The position numbers and the translations under genes are program-made. From a virus: DNA of 20,787 bases. The notes beneath the pieces were generated by a model. It saw nothing but the letters and a program-made list of their open reading frames with translations, was not told the DNA's origin and ran no database searches. The DNA is taken from IMG/VR virus record IMGVR_UViG_3300032241_001665, positions 1 to 20,787 of that record. The stretch is one strand, 5' to 3'. Positions 5,205 to 20,768 of this stretch are shown here, in pieces (within the stretch, counting starts at the first letter, position 1; each line of letters starts with the position of its first letter).

Positions 5205-5237
5205 AAAAGGGAGGCACTAAAAACGCCTCCCTTTTTT
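5205..5237 (+). terminator. Strong intrinsic terminator after gp23
   Basis: AAAAGGGAGGC pairs perfectly with GCCTCCCTTTT (11 bp, 9-nt loop), with the GC-rich core leading into a run of six T. It ends the head operon; the next gene starts from its own late promoter a few bases later. Confidence 0.92.
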
Positions 5238-5240
5238 GTT

Positions 5241-5248
5241 TATAAATA
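5241..5248 (+). promoter_or_regulatory. T4-type late promoter (TATAAATA), leaderless geometry
   Basis: An exact TATAAATA only 5 bases before the ATG at 5254. With the usual T4 late spacing (box at about -13 to -6) transcription would start on the A of the ATG. There is no room for a ribosome site. Confidence 0.7.
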
Positions 5249-5253
5249 TTATT

Positions 5254-5877
5254 ATGACTGTATTAGATTCTTATACAAGACAACCTACTAAACTAGATTA
5301 TGCTAGTCCTACACAATTTAAATTTAATATTCTTAAATTACCTACAGTAGAATATTTTTGTACAAGTGTTAATATTCCTGGTATTACTCTTGATTTTATA
5401 GAACAAAAAACAACACTTAAAAATATTCCTATTCCAGGTAATCGTTTAACATATGCAGATTTAACAGTATCATTTTTAGTAGATGAAAATTTAACTAACT
5501 ATCAAGAAATACACGGATGGTTGACTGGATTAGGATATCCTGAAGATAATAGTCAATTTCAAAATCTTGCATTAGCAGGTTCTGATAGATTTCCAAGTAG
5601 CAATCAACCTGTAAGTACTGAACCTGGACAATCTGGTTCTCCTGCTCCTAGTGCAGGTGCAACGTTATCCGATGCAACCCTTATGGTATTAACAAGTAAG
5701 AATAATCCTGTAGTGGAGGTTCGATTTAAAGACTTGTTTCCTGTATCATTAAGTGGTTTAAATTATAATCAACAACTAACAGATATAACTTATTTAACAG
5801 CAGATGTTACATTTAAATACTTAATTTATGAATTTGCAAATGTAAATTCATCAACTACTACTACTATAGTTACATAA
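5254..5877 (+). CDS. Tail-tube-fold protein (gp3/gp19-like)
   Basis: The product has 207 residues. The N-terminal half shows the pattern of the T4 gp19 tail-tube superfamily in marine myoviruses: 'SPTQFKFNILKLPTVEYFC', then VNIPGITL, then IPIPGNRLTYADLTVSFLVD, then NYQEIHGWLTGLGYP, then a core strand 'LMVLTSKNNPVVEVRFKDLF' and 'YLTADVTFKYLIYEF'. A Ser/Pro/Gly linker lies at about residues 110-140. In marine T4-like phages the slot between gp23 and uvsY is commonly taken by gp3, the tail completion protein, which shares this fold, so gp3 is my best guess and gp19 the alternative. I chose the ATG at 5254 over an upstream in-frame TTG because that TTG overlaps the terminator and late promoter. 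Confidence 0.65.
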   Translation: MTVLDSYTRQPTKLDYASPTQFKFNILKLPTVEYFCTSVNIPGITLDFIEQKTTLKNIPIPGNRLTYADLTVSFLVDENLTNYQEIHGWLTGLGYPEDNSQFQNLALAGSDRFPSSNQPVSTEPGQSGSPAPSAGATLSDATLMVLTSKNNPVVEVRFKDLFPVSLSGLNYNQQLTDITYLTADVTFKYLIYEFANVNSSTTTTIVT

Positions 5878-5895: not shown

Positions 5896-5924
5896 TTGAT
5901 TTTTTAATAAATTTGTGATATATT
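5896..5924 (+). promoter_or_regulatory. Sigma70-like promoter of uvsY, leaderless geometry
   Basis: TTGATT (5896-5901), a 17-base spacer, then TATATT (5919-5924) preceded by TGA, an extended -10. The gap to the uvsY ATG is 6 bases, so the start should fall on or next to the A of the ATG. Confidence 0.65.
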
Positions 5925-5930
5925 AATATA

Positions 5931-6359
5931 ATGGATTTAGAACAATTACAATTAGAAGCCGATAAAGATTTAAAGTTAAATGATCTTGAATTAGACTTAG
6001 AATCTTTAAAAACTCCTCAGTTACATAACAAATATTTAAAACATTATACAAAGTTTAAATTACTTTTAACACGTTCAGAAGATGAATTAAAAACTTTAAA
6101 ACGTGATAAATGGGAATATTATACAGGTAAAGCAAGTCCTGAGGTATATCAAGTTAAACCTTTTGATCTTAAAATATTAAAAACAGATATAGACAAGTAT
6201 TTAGAAGCAGATGAAGATATACAAAAATTATCTCAAAAGGTAATGTATTTAAATACTGTAGTTGATTTTTTAGATCGTACATTAAGAGTAATTGTAAATC
6301 GTACATACACAATTAAAAATGCCATAGAATGGCGCCGTTTTACTTCAGGAGCATTATAA
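5931..6359 (+). CDS. uvsY: UvsY recombination mediator
   Basis: UvsY loads the UvsX recombinase on single-stranded DNA by displacing gp32, in recombination-dependent replication and repair. The 142-residue product matches the T4 length (137) and carries the family signature 'DKWEYYTGKASPEVYQVKPF' followed by D.KILKTDIDKYL, and the closing 'IKNAIEWRRFTSGAL'. It is acidic and helical. It is preceded by a sigma70-like promoter with no room for a ribosome site, while the next gene's start overlaps its stop (TAATG). That pairs uvsY with the downstream oxygenase and uvsW in one early/middle operon. No UvsX gene lies in the window. Confidence 0.93.
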   Translation: MDLEQLQLEADKDLKLNDLELDLESLKTPQLHNKYLKHYTKFKLLLTRSEDELKTLKRDKWEYYTGKASPEVYQVKPFDLKILKTDIDKYLEADEDIQKLSQKVMYLNTVVDFLDRTLRVIVNRTYTIKNAIEWRRFTSGAL

Positions 6360-6919
6360 TGTACTTAGAAAATAATCATTGTTTATCTATAGGTTTTTTT
6401 GATAAAAGTTTTTGTGATAGTATTATAGAAGTAGCAGAAGAAGCAAAATTACAAGATGCAAAAATACAAGATGGTAATAATAATAATAGAAATTCAAAAA
6501 TAACTTGGTTAACAAATGAAAGATTGAATAAAGAAATGGCTGAAGTTATTAATAATCATAACGTAAAAGCAAAATGGAATTTTAAATTAAATGAATTTGA
6601 ACCTTTACAATATACTGTTTATGAAATAAATGATCATTATGATTGGCATATTGATAGTCATACAAAACCATATCCAAATGGTTTAATTAGAAAAATAAGT
6701 TTTACATTATGTTTAAATGAAGATTATGAAGGTGGTGAATTTGAAATATCTAATCCCAATCCTAAACCAGAAAAACATATTAATACAAAATTTAATGATA
6801 AATTTACATTAGGCACAGTGATTTCATTTCCCTCATTTGTATGGCATAAAGTAAATAAAGTTACAAGTGGCACAAGAAAAGTATTGGTAGGTTGGGCAGT
6901 TGGTTCTCAATTTGTTTAA
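6359..6919 (+). CDS. 2-oxoglutarate/Fe(II)-dependent oxygenase
   Basis: The product has 186 residues and the prolyl-4-hydroxylase-like fold of 2OG-Fe(II) oxygenases. The metal ligands are visible: 'YDWHIDSH' gives H97 and D99, and FVWHKVNKV gives H163. R173 in 'SGTRKVLVGWAVG' is the probable 2-oxoglutarate ligand. The central strand 'ISFTLCLNEDYEGGEFEI' is typical. Small enzymes of this family are frequent in marine T4-like phages; substrates are mostly unknown and may be protein, peptide or nucleic acid. The ATG shares a base with the uvsY stop and has AGGAG 7 bases upstream, so translation is coupled to uvsY. The in-frame ATG 30 bases upstream lies inside uvsY and is less likely. Confidence 0.85.
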   Translation: MYLENNHCLSIGFFDKSFCDSIIEVAEEAKLQDAKIQDGNNNNRNSKITWLTNERLNKEMAEVINNHNVKAKWNFKLNEFEPLQYTVYEINDHYDWHIDSHTKPYPNGLIRKISFTLCLNEDYEGGEFEISNPNPKPEKHINTKFNDKFTLGTVISFPSFVWHKVNKVTSGTRKVLVGWAVGSQFV

Positions 6920-6921
6920 TA

Positions 6922-8430
6922 ATGACACTTACCAAATATATTATCATAGATAAAAAAAACGAAGTATATCTTAAAATAGAAGCAGAAGATGCTATTCGTA
7001 GAGATTTATCACAATACTTTACATTTGAGGTACCAGGTTATAAATTTACACCTCAGTTTAGAAATCGTTTTTGGGATGGCAAGATAAGATTATTTTCTTA
7101 TGCAACTGGACAAATATATGCGGGTCTTTATCCATACATTGTTAAATGGTGTCAAGATAATAAGATACAAGTTGTTGATGGAACTAAAATAAAAGATATA
7201 GAAGTAGATAGTAAAGCAATAGATAAGTTTGTTTCGGGTTTAAAAATACCAATGGAACTTAGAGATTATCAAAAGGCTGCGTTTAAACATGCGTTAGAAA
7301 AAAGTCGTTGTTTATTATTATCTCCTACTGCATCTGGTAAATCACTTATAGTTTATTTAATAGTAAGATTTAATCTATTAAGACTTAAAGAAAAATCAAA
7401 TAATAAAATATTAATTATAGTACCCACTACTTCATTGGTAGAGCAGTTATTTAAAGATTTTAAAGACTATGGATGGAAACCAGATAAACATGTACATCGT
7501 ATCTATCAAGGTCATGATAAAGAAACAGATAAAAATGTAATTATATCTACATGGCAATCAATTTATAATATGCCAAAAAAATGGTTTAAATCATTTGGTG
7601 TAGTAATAGGTGATGAGTGTCATTTATTTAAAGCAGTTTCTTTAAGTAAAATAATGACTAAGTTAGAAGATTGTAAATATAGAATTGGATTAACTGGTAC
7701 CTTAGATGGAACTAAAACTAATAAACTTGTATTAGAAGGTTTGTTTGGTGCTGTTAATAAAGTTACATCTACTTCTGAATTACAAGAGAAAAAACAATTA
7801 GCTGATTTAAAAATTATATGTTTAGTATTACAACATGATCAACATTCAAAACATTTTCTTAAAGATAAATCATATCAAGAAGAAATGGATTTCTTAGTAT
7901 CTAATGATAAAAGAAACAAATATATTAGAAATTTGTGTTTAAATTTACAAGGTAATTCTTTAGTGTTATTTCAATATGTAGAAAAACATGGAGTTATATT
8001 AAAAGAACTTATAGAAGATAAAGCCGAAGATAAAAAAATATTTTTCGTTTATGGTGGAGTAGAAGCTGAAGAAAGAGAAAAGATTAGATTCATTACCGAA
8101 AAATCAGATAACGCTATTATTATTGCAAGTTATGGTACTTTTAGTACAGGTATTAATATACGAAATTTACATAATATAGTTTTTGCGTCACCATCAAAAT
8201 CTCGTATAAGAAATCTCCAATCTATAGGTAGAGGTCTTCGTTTAAAAGATAATAACTCTACTGCTACATTATATGATATATCAGATGATTTAACTTACAA
8301 CGGAAAAGAGAATTATACTTTACAGCACTTCAGGGGGAGAATAAATATATACACAAGTGAAAACTTTAATTATGAAATACACAATATAGAATTAAACAAT
8401 GGAAACAATAAAAATAATAAAATTAATTAA
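6922..8430 (+). CDS. uvsW: UvsW helicase (SF2, branch migration)
   Basis: UvsW is the T4 RecG-like superfamily 2 helicase that unwinds R-loops and branched DNA and shifts replication from origin- to recombination-dependent mode. The 502-residue product (T4: 503) shows an N-terminal DNA-binding region with 'FRNRFWDGKIRLF', motif Q 'ELRDYQKAAF', Walker A 'SPTASGKS' (134-141), the box DECH (231-234), motif III 'LTGTLDG', motif V 'ASYGTFSTGINI' and motif VI 'QSIGRGLRLK' from Q433. All key helicase residues are present. The start at 6922 follows the oxygenase stop by 2 bases; an ATG 30 bases upstream would overlap that gene. The 3' end overlaps the next gene by 32 bases. Confidence 0.96.
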   Translation: MTLTKYIIIDKKNEVYLKIEAEDAIRRDLSQYFTFEVPGYKFTPQFRNRFWDGKIRLFSYATGQIYAGLYPYIVKWCQDNKIQVVDGTKIKDIEVDSKAIDKFVSGLKIPMELRDYQKAAFKHALEKSRCLLLSPTASGKSLIVYLIVRFNLLRLKEKSNNKILIIVPTTSLVEQLFKDFKDYGWKPDKHVHRIYQGHDKETDKNVIISTWQSIYNMPKKWFKSFGVVIGDECHLFKAVSLSKIMTKLEDCKYRIGLTGTLDGTKTNKLVLEGLFGAVNKVTSTSELQEKKQLADLKIICLVLQHDQHSKHFLKDKSYQEEMDFLVSNDKRNKYIRNLCLNLQGNSLVLFQYVEKHGVILKELIEDKAEDKKIFFVYGGVEAEEREKIRFITEKSDNAIIIASYGTFSTGINIRNLHNIVFASPSKSRIRNLQSIGRGLRLKDNNSTATLYDISDDLTYNGKENYTLQHFRGRINIYTSENFNYEIHNIELNNGNNKNNKIN

Positions 8431-8806
8431 TGGAGATGATATTGTTTGTAGTTTGGCAAAAGAACAATTGCCAGAACCCACACCTCTTATTCGTATAGAA
8501 AAACCATTACAAATTAAATATGTTTCTCATGTTACATCAAAAGGATTAAAAGATTATATTGCGTTAATTAAATGGACAGGTTATACCAATGATAAAATTA
8601 TATCTGTACCAAAAGATAAAATTGTTACTATTACAAACGCAACAGATGAAATGACTAAAAGTTATATAGACGTATCAGAAAAATATGAATTAATAGATCA
8701 ACCGAAAAAGGGTGATTATAAAATTGAAAAACTATCAAAAGAAGATAATGATACGTTTAATGAATTGTGGGATTCTTTTCGAGATGATAAAAAGACTTTA
8801 CATTAA
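8399..8806 (+). CDS. Conserved-type hypothetical protein, possibly Sm-like
   Basis: The product has 135 residues and I cannot name a family with certainty. The N-terminus 'IKIIKLINGDDIVCSLAKEQ' followed by PLIRIEKPLQIKYV resembles the two-strand start of Sm/Lsm-like domains ('L..G..I.....' then '..NP..I') seen in small T4-like phage proteins. The middle ('KWTGYTNDKIISVPKDKIVT') continues as beta strands and the C-terminus is acidic and helical. It starts inside the end of uvsW (32-base overlap) without a clear ribosome site, which suggests coupled translation. The slot between uvsW and gp55 usually holds a small unknown gene in marine relatives. An RNA- or DNA-binding role is only a guess. 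Confidence 0.7.
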   Translation: METIKIIKLINGDDIVCSLAKEQLPEPTPLIRIEKPLQIKYVSHVTSKGLKDYIALIKWTGYTNDKIISVPKDKIVTITNATDEMTKSYIDVSEKYELIDQPKKGDYKIEKLSKEDNDTFNELWDSFRDDKKTLH

Positions 8807-8916
8807 TTCTATATTAACTCTTATCAAAGAGACTACATGCTCATTATACACATTACTATTTAAAAAGTCAACCATTTTTAAAAACAAAAAAATTTAATCA
8901 TCATATTGATAAGTCA

Positions 8917-8945
8917 TTGACAAAAAACACAAATTATAGTATATT
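8917..8945 (+). promoter_or_regulatory. Sigma70-like promoter of gp55, leaderless geometry
   Basis: Perfect TTGACA (8917-8922), a 17-base spacer and TATATT (8940-8945). A 6-base gap leads to the ATG of the sigma factor gene, so the mRNA is predicted to start at its start codon. The preceding 110 bases hold no gene and no clear terminator. Confidence 0.72.
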
Positions 8946-8951
8946 AACATT

Positions 8952-9530
8952 ATGACAACATCTAAAAAATTAAAAGAACATTATGTAAGTAACAAAGAGT
9001 TTCTTGCGGCAATGATTGAATATCGAAAGATGGTAAACAAGGCTAAGAAACTAGGTCAATCAAAACCACTTGTTACTGATTATATAGGTAACTGTTTTTT
9101 AAAGATCGCAAATCATTTATCGTATAGACCTAACTTTATAAACTATACATTTAGAGATGACATGATCTCTGATGGTATAGAAAATTGTTTACAATATTTG
9201 GACAATTTTAATCCAACTAAATCAAATAATCCTTTTGCTTACTTTACACAAATTATTTACTACGCATTTATAAGAAGAATACAAAAAGAAAAAAAACAAA
9301 CAACAATTAAACATAAGATACTATTAGATTCTAATTTTGATGATATGACTTTACAACCAGGTGAAGATAGAGAGTTTCATAATCAATTTACAGAATTTTT
9401 AAAAAAGAATTTACCTATTGAAGAAGTTCCTAAAATAGAAAGTCTTGCTTATCATAGACAAGCTAAAAAAGAAAAAGCAAAGAAAAAGAAAAAAGAGCAA
9501 AAAGGTAAATTAGATTATTTTATAAACTAA
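8952..9530 (+). CDS. 55: Late-transcription sigma factor gp55
   Basis: gp55 replaces the host sigma factor on RNA polymerase and recognises the TATAAATA box of late promoters; with gp33 and the gp45 clamp it drives late transcription. The product of 192 residues (T4: 185) contains the sigma region-2-like core 'TFRDDMISDGIENCLQYLDN' followed by FNPTKSNNPFAYFTQIIYYA and FIRRIQKEKKQ, near-diagnostic for marine gp55. The C-terminus is very basic (AKKEKAKKKKKEQKGKLDYF), where T4 gp55 has its gp45-binding tail. The exact TATAAATA boxes in this window (1200, 1987, 2679, 5241, 19694) are its expected targets. Its own promoter is of host sigma type, as expected for a gene needed before late transcription. 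Confidence 0.95.
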   Translation: MTTSKKLKEHYVSNKEFLAAMIEYRKMVNKAKKLGQSKPLVTDYIGNCFLKIANHLSYRPNFINYTFRDDMISDGIENCLQYLDNFNPTKSNNPFAYFTQIIYYAFIRRIQKEKKQTTIKHKILLDSNFDDMTLQPGEDREFHNQFTEFLKKNLPIEEVPKIESLAYHRQAKKEKAKKKKKEQKGKLDYFIN

Positions 9531-9531
9531 T

Positions 9532-10593
9532 ATGAAGATTGCTTTATTAAACGATACTCATTTTGGGTGTCGTAATGATTCCCCTGCTTTTATAGAATAT
9601 CAAAATAGATTTTTTGATGAAATATTTTTTCCTTATATAGAACAAAATAAAATTACTACACTTATTCATTTAGGTGATGTAGTAGATAGACGTAAATTTA
9701 TTAACTTTCAAGTAGCACATAATTTTCAAAAAAAATTTTGGAAAAGACTTTGGGAGTTAAAAATAGATACTCATATTATATTAGGCAATCACGATACATA
9801 TTATAAAAATACAAATGAAGTAAATTCAATGGAACAATTGATTACTACGTTTGATGGTATTAATGAACCTTGGATTTATACAAAACCCAAAACAGTAAAC
9901 TTTGATGGATTAGATATATTATTTTTACCTTGGATATGCGATGCAACGTTAGAAGAATCTATACATGCAATTGATTCATCTACATCTCAAATATGTATAG
10001 GGCATTTAGAGATCAAAGGATTTGAAATGCACCGAGGTCATGTTAATGAACAAGGTTTAGAAAAAGAACAATTTAAAAGATTTGAAAAAGTTATATCAGG
10101 TCATTTTCATAAAAAATCAGATGATGGTCATGTTTATTATTTAGGAACACAATACGAAATGACATGGGCAGATTTTCAATGTCCAAAAGGATTTCATATA
10201 TTTGATACAACAACAAGAGAACTAGAAAGAATACCAAACCCAATAAAAATATTTAAAAAATTTATATATGATGATACTAAAGAAGATTATACTAAAAAAG
10301 ATTTAACAGAATATGAAAACTGTTTTGTAAAATTATTTGTATCTCAAAAAACAAAATCAGAGGTATTTGATAATCTAATTGAACAATTACAAAACAAAAT
10401 TAATGTACATGAATTAAATATTATAGAAGATGCAAGTAACGATATATCAGCAACAGTAAAAGAAAACATATTGGAACAAGGCGAAGATACCTTAACATTT
10501 TTAAACAATTACATAGATCAAATAGAAACAACATTAGATAAAAATAAACTTAAAGGATATGTAAAACAATTAATTGCTGAGGCAAACGAATGA
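9532..10593 (+). CDS. 47: Recombination nuclease subunit gp47 (Mre11/SbcD family)
   Basis: gp47 is the nuclease subunit of the gp46-gp47 complex, the phage Mre11-Rad50/SbcCD, which resects DNA ends for recombination-dependent replication and degrades host DNA. The 353-residue product shows all metallophosphoesterase motifs: 'LLNDTHFG' (D8, H10), 'LGDVVDRR' (D49), 'LGNHD' (N86, H87), 'GHLEIKG' (H158) and 'SGHFHKK' (H191, H193). The C-terminal 130 residues form the partner-binding region. It starts 1 base after gp55 and overlaps gp46 by 4 bases (ATGA), the usual arrangement for stoichiometric subunits. Confidence 0.96.
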   Translation: MKIALLNDTHFGCRNDSPAFIEYQNRFFDEIFFPYIEQNKITTLIHLGDVVDRRKFINFQVAHNFQKKFWKRLWELKIDTHIILGNHDTYYKNTNEVNSMEQLITTFDGINEPWIYTKPKTVNFDGLDILFLPWICDATLEESIHAIDSSTSQICIGHLEIKGFEMHRGHVNEQGLEKEQFKRFEKVISGHFHKKSDDGHVYYLGTQYEMTWADFQCPKGFHIFDTTTRELERIPNPIKIFKKFIYDDTKEDYTKKDLTEYENCFVKLFVSQKTKSEVFDNLIEQLQNKINVHELNIIEDASNDISATVKENILEQGEDTLTFLNNYIDQIETTLDKNKLKGYVKQLIAEANE

Positions 10594-12305
10594 TATTATT
10601 TAATAAGATAGTATGGAAAAACTTTTTATCTACAGGTAATACCCCAATAGAGATACAATTAGATAAAGCACTGAATACTTTAGTTGTAGGAACAAATGGT
10701 GCAGGTAAATCTACTTTATTAGATGCGTTATGTTTTGCATTATTTAATAGACCATTTAGATTGATTAAAAAAGAACAAATAGTAAATTCAATTAATGATA
10801 ATGATACATTAGTTACATTGTATTTTACAATAGGAACAAAAAAATATAAAATTATAAGAGGAATTAAACCTTCTATATTTGAAATTTATTGTGAAGATGA
10901 ATTAATAAATCAAGAAGCATCTAGTATAGATTATCAAAATTATTTAGAAAACAATATATTAAAATTAAACTATAGATCATTTGTACAAGTTGTTATACTA
11001 GGTTCTTCTTCTTATGAACCATTTATGAGATTAAGACCTAGACATAGGAGAGAGGTTGTAGAAGAAATATTAGATATTAAAGTATTTGGTAATATTGATG
11101 TGTTATTAAGAAATCAACAGACAGCATTAAATGAAAACTTGTCAGAATTAAAACATAAATGTGATTTAATACAATCAAAGTATGAAATAGAAACAAAACA
11201 TTTTAACGAATTACAAAATAGAGATACCAGTGAAAAAGATTCCAAAAAAGAAACAATAGATAACAACAAGAAAGCATTGACAGATTATTTAAGTAAAGTA
11301 AATAATTTAAATGATGAAATAGATCAATGTAAACAATTATTAATAGATAAAGACAAGATTAATCAAAAAGCAAATCAATTGTCTAAGTTAGAAGCAAAGA
11401 TAGAAACTAATTTATTAAAACATAAACGTTCTTTAGATTTCTTTAACAATAACGATACCTGTCCAGAATGTACTCAAACAATTGATAATAATTTTAAACA
11501 TATTAAATTACAAAAAGAAAATGAAACAATAACAAAATTAAATTCAGGATTACAAGATTTATTATCTGAAATAATTAAAACAGAAACAAAGATAAATGAG
11601 TTTAATGCAATATCAGATAAGATAAAAGATTTAAATATTCAAGTGATTAAAACAAACACTTCTATTGATGAGTTAAAAAAATATACAGATAGAATACATC
11701 AAGAAATTTTATTATTGGAAAACAAAACAATTAATACAAATACAGTTCAGCAACAATTAGATCAACTAAAGATAGATTTGGAAACAAGTAAAAAAGAATT
11801 AGAAAAGATTACAGAAGAAAAACAATACATAGATGTGTTAAGAGAATTATTAAGTGATAAAGGTGCAAAAGCAATGATTATTAAAAAGTATATTCCTATT
11901 ATGAATAATTTAATAAATCAATATTTACAAGCAATGGATTTTTTTGTGTCATTTAATTTAGATGAAGAATTTAATGAAACTGTTAAAAGTCGTCATAGAG
12001 ATAATTTTGATTATAATAGTTTCAGTGAAGGTGAAAAACTAAGAATAGATTTGGCATTAGTTTTTACATGGAGAGCAATAGCCAAAATGAAAAACAGCAC
12101 AAATACTAATCTATTAATACTAGATGAAATATTTGACAGTAGCTTAGACAATCAAGGAACAGATGATTTTTTTAAGATACTTAAAACATTAACAAAAGAA
12201 AATGTCTTTATTATATCGCATAAGGGTGATATATTATTTGATAAATTCACAAACATAATTAAGTTTGAGAAGGAACAAAACTTTACGAGGTTACAAAATG
12301 TCTAA
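10590..12305 (+). CDS. 46: Recombination nuclease ATPase subunit gp46 (Rad50/SbcC family)
   Basis: This is the SMC-like ATPase partner of gp47. Of 571 residues (T4: 560), the N-terminus has Walker A 'GTNGAGKST' (G34-T42). Two long coiled-coil arms flank a zinc hook 'CPEC' (C291, C294). The C-terminus has the ABC signature 'FSEGEK' (S479-G481) and Walker B 'LLILDEIFDSSLD' (D512, E513), followed by the switch His in 'FIISHKGD'. All elements needed for ATP-driven clamping on DNA are intact. Its last 8 bases overlap the deformylase gene. Confidence 0.96.
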   Translation: MILFNKIVWKNFLSTGNTPIEIQLDKALNTLVVGTNGAGKSTLLDALCFALFNRPFRLIKKEQIVNSINDNDTLVTLYFTIGTKKYKIIRGIKPSIFEIYCEDELINQEASSIDYQNYLENNILKLNYRSFVQVVILGSSSYEPFMRLRPRHRREVVEEILDIKVFGNIDVLLRNQQTALNENLSELKHKCDLIQSKYEIETKHFNELQNRDTSEKDSKKETIDNNKKALTDYLSKVNNLNDEIDQCKQLLIDKDKINQKANQLSKLEAKIETNLLKHKRSLDFFNNNDTCPECTQTIDNNFKHIKLQKENETITKLNSGLQDLLSEIIKTETKINEFNAISDKIKDLNIQVIKTNTSIDELKKYTDRIHQEILLLENKTINTNTVQQQLDQLKIDLETSKKELEKITEEKQYIDVLRELLSDKGAKAMIIKKYIPIMNNLINQYLQAMDFFVSFNLDEEFNETVKSRHRDNFDYNSFSEGEKLRIDLALVFTWRAIAKMKNSTNTNLLILDEIFDSSLDNQGTDDFFKILKTLTKENVFIISHKGDILFDKFTNIIKFEKEQNFTRLQNV

Positions 12306-12855
12306 AGAGTTAGTACTATTACCACCAACAGATCCAAGAGTACAATCTGCTATTGCACCATTTAAAGATGAGATGTTAGCAGAACATGGATTTAAAGATA
12401 GAAAAGAATTAACAAATACAATGTTTGATACAATGTTTAAATATGGAGGATTAGGATTATCTGCTAATCAAGTAGGTCTTCCATTTAACATGTTTGTGTT
12501 TGGTGGCCATCCGGAATTAGAACAAGGTAAAAAAGTTGCAGTATTTAATCCAGTAGTTGTATATAAAAGTGATGAAGAAATAGTTATGAAAGAAGGTTGT
12601 TTAACTTTTCCTTTTGTATTTTTATCATTAACAAGACCAAGAAAAATAACAGCAAAATTTGAAGACGAATATGGTGTTTTAAAAGAAGCAAAATTAGATG
12701 GAATGATGAGTAGAATATTTCAACACGAATATGATCATATGTTTGGTCGTTTATTTGTTGAAAAAGCAAGTAAATTTAAACTAAAATTAGCTTACGATAA
12801 AGCACATAAAGAAATGAAACGTATTGAAAAACGTAATAAGTTGACAAAAATTTAA
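12298..12855 (+). CDS. def: Peptide deformylase
   Basis: The enzyme removes the formyl group from the initiating methionine of nascent proteins at the ribosomal tunnel exit. The 185-residue product has the three metal/active-site motifs: 'GLGLSANQVG' (Q58), 'EGCLTF' (C101) and 'HEYDH' (H143, E144, H147). Motif 1 reads GLSANQ rather than the common GLAAxQ, a typical phage variant. Unlike very short phage deformylases it keeps a basic C-terminal helix (KAHKEMKRIEKRNKL) that could hold it on the ribosome. It follows gp46 with an 8-base overlap and a GAGG ribosome site. The last codons contain the -35 box of the next gene. Marine phage deformylases are thought to speed maturation of proteins made during infection. 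Confidence 0.93.
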   Translation: MSKELVLLPPTDPRVQSAIAPFKDEMLAEHGFKDRKELTNTMFDTMFKYGGLGLSANQVGLPFNMFVFGGHPELEQGKKVAVFNPVVVYKSDEEIVMKEGCLTFPFVFLSLTRPRKITAKFEDEYGVLKEAKLDGMMSRIFQHEYDHMFGRLFVEKASKFKLKLAYDKAHKEMKRIEKRNKLTKI

Positions 12856-12869
12856 ACTTGTGATATAGT
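12841..12869 (+). promoter_or_regulatory. Sigma70-like promoter overlapping the end of def, leaderless geometry
   Basis: TTGACA (12841-12846) lies inside the last codons of def, followed by a 17-base spacer and TATAGT (12864-12869) with a TGA extended -10. The gap to the next ATG (12876) is 6 bases, identical to uvsY and gp55. Confidence 0.7.
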
Positions 12870-12875
12870 TGGATT

Positions 12876-13097
12876 ATGATTGATGATGATATAAAACCTA
12901 AAATGTCTAAAGAAGAAAGAGATAAACTTATGCAAGAATTTCTTTCTAAAGGTGGTCAAATTAAAAAAGTAAAACCTGGTATAGCACAAGGTGCGGAATC
13001 ATTGAATAAAAGTAAAGTATTACAATGGACACAAAAAGAAATAATAAATCAGGAAAACAATAATAATTTTATACCATCAAAACACGATGACATATAA
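12876..13097 (+). CDS. Small hypothetical protein
   Basis: The 73-residue product is not assigned to a family. The N-terminal half is charged and helical (MSKEERDKLMQEFLSKGG), followed by a basic turn 'GGQIKKVKPGIAQGA', a pattern I have the impression of from short marine phage proteins without known function. The C-terminal part is polar and Asn-rich. It has its own host-type promoter with leaderless geometry and overlaps the methyltransferase start by 11 bases, so it is probably an early gene that leads a two-gene operon with the methyltransferase. The small basic form could fit a nucleic-acid or polymerase binding role, but nothing shows it. Confidence 0.72.
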   Translation: MIDDDIKPKMSKEERDKLMQEFLSKGGQIKKVKPGIAQGAESLNKSKVLQWTQKEIINQENNNNFIPSKHDDI

Positions 13098-14315: not shown

Positions 14316-14344
14316 TTGAATTTTTAAACAACGCCTGATATATT
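14316..14344 (+). promoter_or_regulatory. Sigma70-like promoter of the CobT-like gene, near-leaderless
   Basis: TTGAAT (14316-14321), a 17-base spacer and TATATT (14339-14344) with 7 bases to the ATG. The -10 lies inside the duplicated CCTGATATATTAAGCT element. Confidence 0.65.
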
Positions 14345-14351
14345 AAGCTAT

Positions 14352-16556
14352 ATGACTAAATTAAATATTCAATCAAAATCGCAACTTGCAAAATTATTTG
14401 CAACCGAAAATCTATCTGTAGAACATAATAACGTAAAAACGGCATCGTTTGATTTATTGAATAGAGTATTGACATTACCTATCTTTAAAAATCCACAAGG
14501 CGATGTTTATGACATGTTAACTGCCCACGAATGTTCACACGCTTTACATACTCCTATATCCACATGGTCAAAATTAACAAATGAAGAATTTAGATTCTAT
14601 GTTAATATTTTAGAAGACACAAGAATTGATAGATTAATACAAAAAAAATATCCAGGTATTGTTAAAAACTATATTAATGGTTTTGATGTATTAATGCAAC
14701 AAAACTTTTTTAAATTAAAAGATAAAAATATTAATACAGATTTAATGTTAATTGATAAAATTAATATGTTTTATAAATCATCTAAAAGAATGAAAATTAA
14801 ATTTAATGATGATGAAAAAAAATGGTTAGATAAAGTAGATGCTCTTAAATCATTTAATGATGTAATTAAACTTGCCAAAGAATTATATGAATTTCAAGAA
14901 AATGAAATTAAAAAATTATCTATGTTACCTGAATTTGATAATCACCCTTATGTTAAAAATTATAAACTAGATAAAAATGGTAAACCAATTAAAGTAATCA
15001 CGACTAATTCTGATGAAAATACATTTGATAATAAAGATGATAATAAAGATGGCAATCAAATTAAAAAAAGTAATGAAGGCAATCCTAATGGTTATGGTGG
15101 TAACAATGTACAAGTAGATAACGCTCCATTAAAATCATATACTGATCAAGCATTTGAAGAAGAAAAAAATAAATTATTAGATACATCTAAAAGTTATAAT
15201 TATGTAACTTTACCTGAACCTATATTAAAAGACACAATCGTATCTTATAATACTTTTTTAGATGATTTTAGAAATAATAATAAAGAAGCATTTAAAAGAA
15301 GCTCTGATTGTGTACATTACTGGCAATGGTTAAAACAAGATTTTTTAAAATTTAAAAAAGAAAATGCAAAAACTGTAATGTATCTTGTTAAAGAATTTGA
15401 AATGAAAAAAGCAGCATCTGCTTATAAAAGAGCAACAATAGATAAAACTGGTGTTATAGATCCTCTTAAACTTAAAAATTATAAATTTGATGATAATATT
15501 TTTAAAAGATTAACTATATTACCTAATAGTAAAAATCACGGTATGATGATGTTATTAGACTGGTCTGGTTCTATGTCTGATATTTTAAGTAAAACAATAT
15601 ATCAATTAATGAATTTAATATGGTTTTGTCAAAAAATTAATATACCATTTGAAGTATATCTATTTAAAGATGTTGAAGAACAAAAAATTCCTTATGGTTT
15701 TAAACCATCATTTAAATATAAAAATAAAGATTTAGCAGCAGAAAATTTAAAACTTATAAACATTGCTAGTCATAAAATGAAAAAAAATGTATTACACGAA
15801 GCAATGACATACTTATATCTTGTAGCAAAACAATTTAATAGAAATTGGGAAAAAGAAAAAACAGAAGGCAGAATGATATATATTCCTGAAAACTATAAAT
15901 TAACATCTACACCATTGAACGAAGCATTATTAGTATGCCAAAAATTAGTACCTATTTTTAAAGACAAATATAAAATTGAAAAACTTACATTTATAACACT
16001 TACAGATGGTGAGACTAATTCTCATTTTACTGAAATGTATTATGATAATACAAAACCAACAAATCTATCTTCATTTAAAAGATATAGTGCAATTCATGTT
16101 GTTAAAGATAAAAATAAAAATTATTCAACTTATGATGTAAGATCAGGTGATTATTCTTATAACAGAACAGGCCTTACAAGTATATTATTAAATATGTTAA
16201 GAGAAAAGTATAATGTTAATACTATTGGATTCTTTTTATCAAAATACACAAGTAAATATTCTTTTGAACGATTTGTAAATGAATATAATCATTCTAAAGG
16301 AATCACTACTAAAAATACAAATTTTGATAAACTTAGAAAACAATTTTTAAAAGAAAAAACAATTGAAGTATCTAAATCAGGATATAACAAATACTTTATT
16401 GTAAATGCTAAAGACATGGGTATTTCATCTTTAGATTTAAACACTCTTAATACATCATCTAAAGTTTCCGATATTAAACGAAATTTCGTTAATTCTATGA
16501 AAAATCGTATTCATTCGAGAGTTTTATTAAACAGATTTATTGAACAGGTGGCTTAA
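14352..16556 (+). CDS. cobT: CobT-like VWA protein with HExxH metallopeptidase-like N-terminus
   Basis: This large (734-residue) protein resembles the CobT-like proteins of marine T4-like phages. The N-terminal part has 'TAHECSHALHTP' with an HExxH motif (H59, E60, H63) and 'NILEDTRIDRLI' about 25 residues later, where E88 could be a third metal ligand as in gluzincin peptidases. A low-complexity Asn/Asp/Lys linker spans about residues 215-260. The C-terminal von Willebrand A domain has a MIDAS motif 'DWSGS' (D403, S405, S407) and 'LTDGETNS' (D552). VWA proteins of this type work with MoxR/CobS AAA+ ATPases, the gene that follows. In bacteria CobS-CobT-CobN insert cobalt in B12 synthesis, but no CobN is visible, so a chelatase role is doubtful. 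Remodelling or cleavage of a protein partner is at least as likely. Confidence 0.8.
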   Translation: MTKLNIQSKSQLAKLFATENLSVEHNNVKTASFDLLNRVLTLPIFKNPQGDVYDMLTAHECSHALHTPISTWSKLTNEEFRFYVNILEDTRIDRLIQKKYPGIVKNYINGFDVLMQQNFFKLKDKNINTDLMLIDKINMFYKSSKRMKIKFNDDEKKWLDKVDALKSFNDVIKLAKELYEFQENEIKKLSMLPEFDNHPYVKNYKLDKNGKPIKVITTNSDENTFDNKDDNKDGNQIKKSNEGNPNGYGGNNVQVDNAPLKSYTDQAFEEEKNKLLDTSKSYNYVTLPEPILKDTIVSYNTFLDDFRNNNKEAFKRSSDCVHYWQWLKQDFLKFKKENAKTVMYLVKEFEMKKAASAYKRATIDKTGVIDPLKLKNYKFDDNIFKRLTILPNSKNHGMMMLLDWSGSMSDILSKTIYQLMNLIWFCQKINIPFEVYLFKDVEEQKIPYGFKPSFKYKNKDLAAENLKLINIASHKMKKNVLHEAMTYLYLVAKQFNRNWEKEKTEGRMIYIPENYKLTSTPLNEALLVCQKLVPIFKDKYKIEKLTFITLTDGETNSHFTEMYYDNTKPTNLSSFKRYSAIHVVKDKNKNYSTYDVRSGDYSYNRTGLTSILLNMLREKYNVNTIGFFLSKYTSKYSFERFVNEYNHSKGITTKNTNFDKLRKQFLKEKTIEVSKSGYNKYFIVNAKDMGISSLDLNTLNTSSKVSDIKRNFVNSMKNRIHSRVLLNRFIEQVA

Positions 16557-16594: not shown

Positions 16595-16623
16595 TTGTGG
16601 TTATTATATTAACCTGATATACT
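16595..16623 (+). promoter_or_regulatory. Sigma70-like promoter of the CobS-like gene
   Basis: TTGTGG (16595-16600), a 17-base spacer and TATACT (16618-16623). The -35 is weak, which would fit dependence on an activator at the upstream repeat. A start near 16630 leaves a leader of about 31 nt to the ATG at 16661. Confidence 0.5.
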
Positions 16624-16660
16624 AAGCTTATACAATTTAATTATGAAAGGACTAAATAAT

Positions 16661-17903: not shown

Positions 17904-17932
17904 TTGACAAAATCTATAAACTATGATACAAT
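17904..17932 (+). promoter_or_regulatory. Sigma70-like promoter of the ParB-like/GIY-YIG/bS21 operon
   Basis: Perfect TTGACA (17904-17909), a 17-base spacer and TACAAT (17927-17932) with an extended TGA. The leader to the ATG at 17959 is about 20 nt, has no Shine-Dalgarno sequence, and carries ACTAATAAC, also present before the gene at 20304. Confidence 0.7.
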
Positions 17933-17958
17933 AATAACAACTAATAACATTATATATT

Positions 17959-18957
17959 ATGAAACAATTGAAACAATTACCTAATAACGTTGCAAAAATG
18001 CCTGTATATCCAGGGTGTAAATTTTTATATTTTGCATTAGTAAAAGTAAAAGATATAAAAACAAGATTTTCTTTTGCAGATTTACTATGGGGAAAAATTA
18101 AAAATGCATTAATCAATATTCGTACCACAAATTGGCTTATTGTCAAAACAATTGAGACTTCAATTATCGAAGGCACCTATGATACTTCAAATTTTGAACC
18201 ACCTATAGTATCTGAATCATTAGAACTTTTTATGGGCAAACATAGATATTTAGCTCATTTAAATACAAATGAAACCTATATGATCGTTGCAGTAGTTGAA
18301 TTTTTACATTTTGAAAATAAAAAACCTATTCATTGGTTAAGAATTGCTCAAGGTATTGAAAATAATAAACCAGTTTTTAAAAATCAAGGCACCGATGATG
18401 ATAATATACAAATTGTTTTAACACAAATAAAAGAAAAAACTATATCATTAGAATATAACGATATTGAAAATTCTTTTAAATGTTTAGGCATAAAACAAGG
18501 CATAAAAAGAAAAAAACTTATAGATTTAGTTTATAAAAAACTTAATAAAAAATCTTCTATAGAAATTCCTGAACAGTTATCAGCAGAAGAAAAAAGAATA
18601 TGGTTTAAAAAAACATATCCAAATTGTACAGCATCAACACCTGAAAATATAAAAATAAATGATGATAATAATATTTATTTATTAGGTGAATATAAAAATA
18701 AAACTGATAGATATCCTATAATAAATCCTTATAAAATGTTGTTAACAGCAACAGCACATAAAGATAACCAAGTAGTTTTTCAATACAGTGTAAATGCTGA
18801 AACTGCAAAACAAGTAAAAATAATGAGAAACTATGTACCATTAAATATGATTGAGTTTGAAAATAAAATTTGCAATATGGCAGATTATATTAGATCATTT
18901 AATTATAAAAGACCAATACAAATACCAATGTCTCAACTGAAAGGAGATATAAAGTAA
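17959..18957 (+). CDS. ParB/sulfiredoxin-fold-like protein, unknown function
   Basis: The product has 332 residues. The stretch from about residue 70 to 116, 'EGTYDTSNFEPPIVSESLEL', then FMGKHRYLAHL, then TYMIVAVVEF, resembles the ParB N-terminal (ParB/Srx) fold, in which a 'G(R/K)HR..A' motif binds nucleotide (here G93, H95, R96). The C-terminal 200 residues are basic and not recognised. ParB-like phage proteins include CTPases, DNA nucleases and modification-related factors, so the activity is open. It heads a tight operon: its stop overlaps the next gene's ATG (TAATG) and a ribosome site AAGGAG sits inside its last codons. It is driven by a host-type promoter, suggesting early expression. 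The lineage assignment is moderate; the coding call is strong. Confidence 0.6.
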   Translation: MKQLKQLPNNVAKMPVYPGCKFLYFALVKVKDIKTRFSFADLLWGKIKNALINIRTTNWLIVKTIETSIIEGTYDTSNFEPPIVSESLELFMGKHRYLAHLNTNETYMIVAVVEFLHFENKKPIHWLRIAQGIENNKPVFKNQGTDDDNIQIVLTQIKEKTISLEYNDIENSFKCLGIKQGIKRKKLIDLVYKKLNKKSSIEIPEQLSAEEKRIWFKKTYPNCTASTPENIKINDDNNIYLLGEYKNKTDRYPIINPYKMLLTATAHKDNQVVFQYSVNAETAKQVKIMRNYVPLNMIEFENKICNMADYIRSFNYKRPIQIPMSQLKGDIK

Positions 18958-19325
18958 TGTCTTTAAAAAATAAAAATATAATTAATCAATCAGGTGTTTA
19001 TTTCATAAAAATGAAATTAGATTCTGAAATTATTAAAGAATGTCCCAATACTAATTTTATAAAAATTGGTGAGTGTGTTAATAAAGAAAATAGAAAAGAT
19101 GATTTAGATACAGGTAGTCCTTTTCCATTAGAAGTAGTAGGTTTTATACCATTACCTAGAGATAAGAATATTCTTAGAGCAGAAGAAAAAAGAGCTCATT
19201 CATATTTTGGTCACTATCATTATAAGGGAGAATGGTATAAAAATATGGAGAATCTTGTTGATGATTATGTTAATTTAAGAAAAAAAGATTTAACTAACCA
19301 AGAAACCGTTAAGGAGGTATATTAA
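18957..19325 (+). CDS. T5orf172/GIY-YIG-like small protein
   Basis: The product has 122 residues. The order 'GVYFIKM' (13-19), 'FIKIGEC' with 'ENRKDDLDTGSPFPLEVVGF' (44-63), an 'AEEKRAHSYFGHYHYKGEWY' segment (E76, H81, GEW 91-93) matches the T5orf172/MUG113 branch of the GIY-YIG nuclease superfamily: first-strand Tyr, KIG, an Arg on the helix, a Glu and a C-terminal EW(Y/F). Here the second motif is KIGE and the first is GVYFI, a normal variant for this branch. It may be a small endonuclease acting on DNA, or a binding protein without cleavage. The ATG overlaps the upstream stop and has AAGGAG 10 bases before it. The last codons encode the perfect Shine-Dalgarno sequence of the bS21 gene. Confidence 0.72.
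   Translation: MSLKNKNIINQSGVYFIKMKLDSEIIKECPNTNFIKIGECVNKENRKDDLDTGSPFPLEVVGFIPLPRDKNILRAEEKRAHSYFGHYHYKGEWYKNMENLVDDYVNLRKKDLTNQETVKEVY
19311..19318 (+). promoter_or_regulatory. Perfect Shine-Dalgarno AAGGAGGT of the bS21 gene
   Basis: An eight-base match to the 16S anti-Shine-Dalgarno, the strongest ribosome site in the window. It lies 8 bases before a CTG in the bS21 frame and supports initiation there despite the lack of ATG, GTG or TTG. Confidence 0.75.
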
Positions 19326-19326
19326 A

Positions 19327-19533
19327 CTGGGGTTAAAAGTAGAGGTTAAGAATAACAATGTTGAAAAAGCAATGCGTATTCTTAAAAAGAAACTGTTAAA
19401 GGAAGGTGTTATGAGACTGTATAAAATGAAACAGACTTATGAAAAGCCATCCGAAAAAAGAGTTAGAAAGCAAAAAGAAATGCGAATTAACTTTTTAAAA
19501 AGACAAAAAATGATAAGAGATTCACAGTTTTAA
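19327..19533 (+). CDS. rpsU: Ribosomal protein bS21 (phage-encoded), non-ATG start
   Basis: A 68-residue, very basic product with the layout of bS21, the small-subunit protein beside the anti-Shine-Dalgarno end of 16S rRNA. It has an N-terminal strand 'LKVEVKNNN', then 'VEKAMRILKKKLLKEGVMRL', then the family signature 'YEKPSEKRVRKQKEMR' and a lysine/arginine-rich helix. In E. coli the matching part is YEKPTTERKRAK. There is no ATG, GTG or TTG at the right place: CTG at 19327 sits 8 bases behind a perfect Shine-Dalgarno and is my choice; ATT at 19321 is the alternative, and the first ATG (19357) would remove the N-terminal strand. bS21 is among the ribosomal proteins known from viruses. Here it is last in the ParB-like/GIY-YIG operon. 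Expressed, it could replace host bS21 and change which mRNAs initiate. Confidence 0.85.
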   Translation: MGLKVEVKNNNVEKAMRILKKKLLKEGVMRLYKMKQTYEKPSEKRVRKQKEMRINFLKRQKMIRDSQF

Positions 19534-20275: not shown

Positions 20276-20303
20276 AGCTATATAAACTAATAACTATTAT
20301 ATT

Positions 20304-20768
20304 ATGAAAAAGAAAAATCAAATATCTACTGATAACTCAAATGATTTGTTTGAACAATTTTGTATTGAACGAGCAAAAAAACTAGAAAGAACAAAAAAAA
20401 GATTATTTGTTTTATGGAGCGGTACTAAAGAGAGTACAATAATAGTTAAATCTATATTAAAAGTAGTTCCTGTAACTCGATTATATTTTATTATGAATCA
20501 AAATTCTTTAAAAAAAGATTTTAAAACTTATGATAAATTTATTAGTAAAATCTCAGGCGGACCTGACGGTGCCGGTGAACAAATTTGGTGCGAAAAAATA
20601 ACTAAAAAAGGTTTTATAAAATATATATTAAATTCTACTGGGCCTGATCCAGATAACTTTGATCCCAAAAAAGATTTATTTGTAGGGTGTTCAGATGATT
20701 TAGATCATCTATTCGAAAAAGATGTTGACATTCAAAATAAATTATGTTATATTCCAAGTATAACATGA
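20304..20768 (+). CDS. Degenerate PP-loop-like protein, unknown
   Basis: The product has 154 residues. After a charged helix, 'RLFVLWSGTKESTIIVKSIL' (33-52) resembles the PP-loop of ATP pyrophosphatase enzymes (PAPS reductase, asparagine synthase and related), where the motif is SGGxDS. Here it reads S39-G40-T41-K42-E43-S44, with Gly and Asp replaced, so ATP binding may be weakened. Phages related to T4 carry PP-loop proteins with 'WSGG.DST'. The rest (FISKISGGPDGAGEQIWCEK, then PKKDLFVGCSDDLDHLFEK) is not recognised. The protein is short for an enzyme of the class, so it may be one part of a split protein: the next reading frame overlaps its stop (ATGA). It has its own promoter and no ribosome site. 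Confidence 0.6.
   Translation: MKKKNQISTDNSNDLFEQFCIERAKKLERTKKRLFVLWSGTKESTIIVKSILKVVPVTRLYFIMNQNSLKKDFKTYDKFISKISGGPDGAGEQIWCEKITKKGFIKYILNSTGPDPDNFDPKKDLFVGCSDDLDHLFEKDVDIQNKLCYIPSIT

Follow-up and report, generated by a model that had tools for sequence, protein, structure and literature searches.

Promoters and genes of the window

The window, meaning the whole stretch of DNA that was analysed, is a 20.8 kb viral fragment (20,787 nt) of a T4-like phage. When both of its strands were scanned, the pattern TTGAYN-17-TATANT-6-ATG was found at 5896-5933, 8917-8954 and 12841-12878 and nowhere else, and these three exact matches are those that the original prediction had assigned to uvsY, to gp55 and to a small gene starting at 12876 (g12876). 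The matching layout with seven bases that it had described for the cobT-like gene (TTGAAT-17-TATATT-7-ATG, 14316-14354) was likewise found. The features concerned are:

5896-5933, + strand: uvsY promoter, -35 TTGATT (5896-5901), spacer of 17, -10 TATATT (5919-5924), ATG at 5931
5931-6359, + strand: uvsY, recombination mediator (Pfam UvsY, E 6e-37)
8917-8954, + strand: gp55 promoter, TTGACA (8917-8922), spacer of 17, TATATT (8940-8945), ATG at 8952
8952-9530, + strand: gp55, late sigma factor (PHROG 234 late sigma factor, E 1e-60)
12841-12878, + strand: g12876 promoter, TTGACA (12841-12846), spacer of 17 with TGA, TATAGT (12864-12869), ATG at 12876
12876-13097, + strand: g12876, small ORF of 73 aa with no assigned function
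14316-14354, + strand: promoter of the cobT-like gene, TTGAAT, spacer of 17 with TGA, TATATT (14339-14344), seven bases, ATG at 14352
14352-16556, + strand: cobT-like peptidase gene (PHROG 459 peptidase, E 2e-176)

The discriminators are AATATA at uvsY, where the spacer ends in TGA (extended -10), AACATT at gp55 and TGGATT at g12876, whose -35 falls within the 3' end of the deformylase gene. The uvsY site can also be read as an overlapping hexamer pair, TTAATA-17-TATAAT, and the register of 6 is favoured there by relatives that have TATAAT-TATATT-ATG. No homologue of g12876 was present in the phage collection searched; the SutA RNAP-binding domain matches its product weakly (E 4.6e-5, under the curated cut-off), and the product may, judging from this match, be an early RNA-polymerase-binding protein.

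Early promoters are not uniform in this respect, and the association of early promoters with a leaderless layout that had been proposed does not hold as a rule, since the sigma70-type promoters of genes 16643, 17959 and 20304 are predicted to give leaders of about 20-26 nt, without Shine-Dalgarno. As a separate observation, the promoters of the cobT-like (14336-14354) and cobS-like (16609-16643) genes have CCTGATATAYTAAGCT(T)AT in common, followed immediately by ATG at one of the two genes and about 12 bases later at the other. Two unrelated genes also share, at 17930-17961 and 20284-20306, a leader-like stretch ACTAATAAC and then an AT-rich run ending in ATATTATG; these stretches extend 26-28 bases past the -10 and are without Shine-Dalgarno.

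Late promoters have been encountered in the window in the form known from T4, with TATAAATA before head and tail genes and with gp55 encoded. They are of two kinds:

5241-5256, + strand: leaderless-type late promoter of the tail-tube gene, TATAAATA (5241-5248), TTATT, ATG at 5254
5254-5877, + strand: tail-tube gene (PHROG 45 tail tube, E 1e-37)
1987-2012, + strand: contrasting late promoter of the gp21 protease gene, TATAAATA (1987-1994), 15 bases with GAGG, ATG at 2010
1200-1231, + strand: contrasting late promoter, TATAAATA (1200-1207), 21 bases with GAGG, ATG at 1229

Between the capsid and tail-tube genes, at 5205-5237, there is a strong hairpin with a T-run on the + strand (oriented both ways), which directly precedes the tail-tube late promoter.

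Promoter-to-ATG distances in relatives and control phages

Relatives were gathered via gp55, uvsY, cobT and the capsid gene, and the genomes of Pelagibacter phage Mosig, Methylophilales phage Melnitz and Pelagibacter phage HTVC008M, the nearest isolates by major capsid protein identity (78%, 69% and 67.5%, respectively), were added to them; T4, Syn9, P-SSM4, AG-345-F15, P-SSM2, KVP40 and phiM12 served as control phages. An early promoter was required to have at least 5 of 6 matches per hexamer and a spacer of 16-18, and d denotes how many bases separate the -10 (or the late box) from an ATG close to the beginning of a called ORF.

In the marine T4-like relatives, the distance from sigma70-type promoters of spacer 17 to ATG has its peak at exactly 6 bases. 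With each family counted once (gene calling being mechanical and family clustering approximate), d=6 holds 10.7 of the 74 early weights of the pelagiphage group, compared with 1.6 if distances were uniform, a simple null that weighs less than the tests with control phages, permuted motifs and other spacings. If only the IMG relatives are taken, the family-weighted early peak becomes modest (5.4 of 43, p about 0.003). Among the isolates, Mosig has d=6 at 4 of its 12 early promoters, those of HTVC008M favour d=9-13, none of those of Melnitz is a strict d=6 site, and some homologues in the latter two have longer leaders. There is furthermore a hump at d=9 in the relatives, part of it with GGAG/GAGG directly before ATG, which implies that the leaders of some of them are ultrashort and not of zero length.

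Individual families keep the distance while the sequence around it changes. At d=6 there are 28 distinct uvsY homologues with 12 different discriminators and 49 distinct gp55 homologues with 22, the abutting hexamers being near consensus and the 17-base spacer invariant. At offset 6, counted per site and not per family, ATG occurs 60 times against a background of 11.6, while GTG (3) and TTG (5) stay at or below theirs (5.8 and 9.2).

The late promoters have a register of their own, one that numerous gene families share, the tail-tube gene of the window among them: TATAAATA lies exactly 5 bases before ATG, and with families counted once d=5 holds 12.9 of the 53 late weights of the pelagiphage group, compared with 1.2 under the uniform expectation. 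Late distances fall into two groups: a sharp peak at d=5 and, after few at 6-14, the long leaders. The tail tube alone contributes 68 distinct d=5 homologues with 25 different discriminators and proteins down to 26% identical, and late d=5 sites are common to Mosig, HTVC008M and Melnitz. An early/late division of initiation mode, with leaderless early mRNAs and Shine-Dalgarno leaders on late ones, is ruled out by this late d=5 class; what had been said of Shine-Dalgarno leaders on late genes stands for gp21, gp22 and hsp20 and fails as a generalization, as the tail-tube gene lacks one. The real division is that between zero-length and long leaders, not that between early and late genes.

T4, KVP40, Syn9 and AG-345-F15 have neither the early d=6 nor the late d=5 peak, and the Prochlorococcus phages show early d=6 in isolated cases (2 of 25 in P-SSM2, 1 of 15 in P-SSM4).

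Could the layout be due to chance in an AT-rich genome, or to start codons that were wrongly assigned? TATA-like hexamers are abundant in such genomes. Promoter-like hexamer pairs are not in excess in the region (68, with 70.8 expected), so the signal resides in their placement relative to ATG. The exact pattern was absent from 100 dinucleotide shuffles of the window, and in 1000 further ones it was absent from 984 and occurred once in 16, never more than once, whereas the window has three, which bears out the earlier statement that identical spacing goes beyond chance. When spacers of 12-22 between TTGAY and a TATAAT-like hexamer were compared, only 17 stood out (127, the others being at most 45), and among the spacer-17 pairs the commonest distance is d=6 (20 distinct N-termini) and the next d=9 (13). 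Out of 56 permutations of the eight late-box letters, only TATAAATA shows the d=5 peak; the top-scoring others (TAAATAAT at 3, ATATAAAT at 6 and ATAAATAT at 4) look like TATAAATA sites shifted by a base or two. Of the d=6 homologues, 25 of 28 (uvsY) and 36 of 49 (gp55) have an in-frame stop within 12 nt upstream of the ATG, and those ORFs are therefore unable to begin much further 5'. Chance and AT-richness are thus ruled out by the shuffles, the permuted motifs, the off-spacing controls and the AT-rich control phages without a peak, and misassigned starts by the close in-frame stops and the conserved N-termini, which makes this explanation hardly credible.

Predicted transcription starts and mode of initiation

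The preferred start of the sigma70 RNA polymerase is 7 bp downstream of the -10 (PMC5730371), and d=6 therefore sets +1 on the A of ATG. In T4, the first base of the 8-bp late box is at -13 (PMC2988020), so that the box reaches from -13 to -6, and d=5 sets +1 on that same A. Two promoter classes of differing geometry, with registers one base apart, would in this way converge on the same predicted start. The base before ATG is a pyrimidine, the context that RNA polymerase prefers before the start (PMC5730371), at 97% of the late d=5 sites, compared with 50% of the late sites with long leaders and 49% of genes overall; among the early sites, 76% at short and 57% at long distance have it.

Shine-Dalgarno-like 4-mers follow the same division. 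In the IMG relatives they precede 5% of the late genes at short d and 64% at long d, and 18% and 54%, respectively, of the early ones; for the late promoters of Melnitz, the counts are 0 of 2 at short d and 14 of 14 at long d. In the window, no Shine-Dalgarno was found within 20 nt (the last 3 excluded) of the uvsY, gp55, g12876, cobT-like and tail-tube genes, nor in any of the 26 uvsY homologues with d=5-8. The gp55 homologues at d=5-8 have such a 4-mer within 20 nt in 14 of 53 cases, and at d=6 these 4-mers would fall in untranscribed promoter sequence.

The reading that we favour is that these are real promoters whose RNA very probably starts on, or within 1-2 bases of, the A of ATG, yielding leaderless mRNAs. 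Six bases from the -10 to ATG at sigma70-type promoters, and five bases from TATAAATA to ATG at the gp55-type late promoters of the phage, would each put the start on that A; the 5'-terminal AUG would then be engaged directly by the ribosome, with no need of a Shine-Dalgarno, and promoter-proximal genes would be of two kinds, either leaderless or with a leader that is usually long enough for one. The placement of the promoters, its conservation, the two registers, the initiator bases and the behaviour of the controls are observed, and it is from promoter geometry that we infer where the RNAs actually begin and how they are translated. The leaderless mRNAs of the original prediction thus gain support from the relatives, the promoter registers, the initiator bases and the control phages. 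The preference of HTVC008M for d=9-13, the lack of a strict early d=6 site in Melnitz, the d=9 hump, the Shine-Dalgarno-like 4-mers of the gp55 homologues and the modest early peak of the IMG relatives alone are points against it.

Compaction of the genome could be the origin of the abutting layout. Compaction as the whole explanation, with promoters that are squeezed to a working minimum and serve mainly the downstream genes, the first cistron being leaderless by default and perhaps poorly translated, is in keeping with the compactness of these genomes and with the -35 of g12876 inside the deformylase gene. Nonetheless, it predicts a tail of small distances above the minimum, whereas the late distances are bimodal and sharp at 5, and the long-term conservation of d while discriminators diverge, together with the pyrimidine at -1, speaks for a functional register; we consider it unlikely. 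The main mRNAs might, on the other hand, be read through from upstream promoters and translated by Shine-Dalgarno or coupled initiation, the abutting promoters being minor. The GGAG/GAGG before ATG in some d=9 relatives, present only on a longer transcript, and the longer leaders of some HTVC008M and Melnitz homologues would fit with this. The absence of Shine-Dalgarno at the uvsY, gp55, g12876 and cobT-like genes of the window and in the uvsY homologues, the near-consensus hexamers and the invariable spacer of 17 make it quite improbable.

SAR11 hosts and the phage-encoded bS21

SAR11 bacteria are the hosts of the nearest isolate, and their use of Shine-Dalgarno is low, at 13-18% of intergenic starts in the two genomes measured. 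In four SAR11 genomes, 400 kb each, 20 first-ATG starts were found at d=5-6 where 5.8 were expected, and none of the 24 starts at d=5-8 has a Shine-Dalgarno, for which reason SAR11-type hosts, judged from their genomes, probably make and translate leaderless mRNAs. Counting -10-to-ATG distances over the whole phage and host genomes, with shuffled controls, had been proposed as a check; in the relatives and in SAR11, such counts give the d=6 peak of the relatives and a SAR11 peak of the same kind, although weaker. The -10 excess 5-6 bases before ATG recurs in other SAR11 genomes, at genes with GcrA- and Fur-like N-termini (named by eye). The strict phage promoter pattern has one match in six SAR11 genomes, which indicates that host promoters are unlike the phage consensus; EM motif discovery applied to the host starts failed to settle on any promoter motif. 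The layout was not seen in the unrelated SAR11 phages Kolga (part), HTVC010P and HTVC019P, in which few promoters were found, and thus the host alone seems not to impose it.

The window also encodes a ribosomal protein:

19327-19533, + strand: ribosomal protein bS21, no ATG start (Pfam PF01165, E 5e-16)

Its gene has AAGGAGG at 19311-19317, followed by in-frame ATT (19321) and CTG (19327). Elsewhere bS21 starts with TTG (L012), ATT-TTG (Mosig, L161, about 9965-10141) or ATG (L030), and the SAR11 homologue (L328) is likewise without ATG at its start. The non-AUG start could serve autoregulation; infC has an AUU start and is autoregulated. Besides the window, Mosig, HTVC008M and Melnitz encode bS21, and none of the seven control phages has it. 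These four carriers are mutually related, so the co-occurrence with the leaderless layout may be due to shared descent only. A link between bS21 and initiation mode is conceivable; that phage bS21 modifies the ribosomes of the host in infection and tips the balance of initiation between Shine-Dalgarno and leaderless mRNAs, as a translational regulon, is an improbable proposal, under which recombination, late sigma and tail-tube genes would obey a separate initiation rule.

Comparison with known systems and outlook

In cellular leaderless genes, a -10 few bases before the start codon gives a leaderless mRNA, which has been shown experimentally there and is predicted here; those genes have one promoter class, often without a -35, while the marine phages have a near-consensus -35 and -10 and, in addition, a phage-type late promoter in its own register. 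The cI mRNA of phage lambda is likewise naturally leaderless and begins on AUG (PMC4965119), although it represents a single gene and not many gene families with both promoter classes. T4 has in common with the window the late box TATAAATA and the gp55 and UvsY protein families (PMC2988020); it differs in having no called gene at early d=6 or late d=5 and in its long leaders, with a Shine-Dalgarno-like 4-mer in 64% (early) and 83% (late). In Prochlorococcus MED4, likewise marine and streamlined, 6-8% of primary TSSs are reported to lie within 10 nt of a start, and these leaderless TSSs are those of host transcripts (PMC5607370); the phages P-SSM2 and P-SSM4 have the layout in isolated cases only.

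The Melnitz paper describes 31 early and 15 late promoters, and a search of its text returned no comment on start-codon spacing (PMC9004378). A literature search, limited for subscription papers, found no leaderless mRNAs reported in pelagiphages or T4-like phages. Leaderless mRNAs are already known, and no report was found of their use at many genes of a T4-type phage, or of gp55-type late promoters positioned for a start on AUG.

Should the reading be confirmed, leaderless initiation could be tested in the existing isolates Mosig, HTVC008M and Melnitz, and the layout would provide an annotation rule for starts and promoters, namely an ATG 6 bases past the -10 or 5 past TATAAATA. It would also mean that phages of abundant ocean bacteria combine two modes of initiation.
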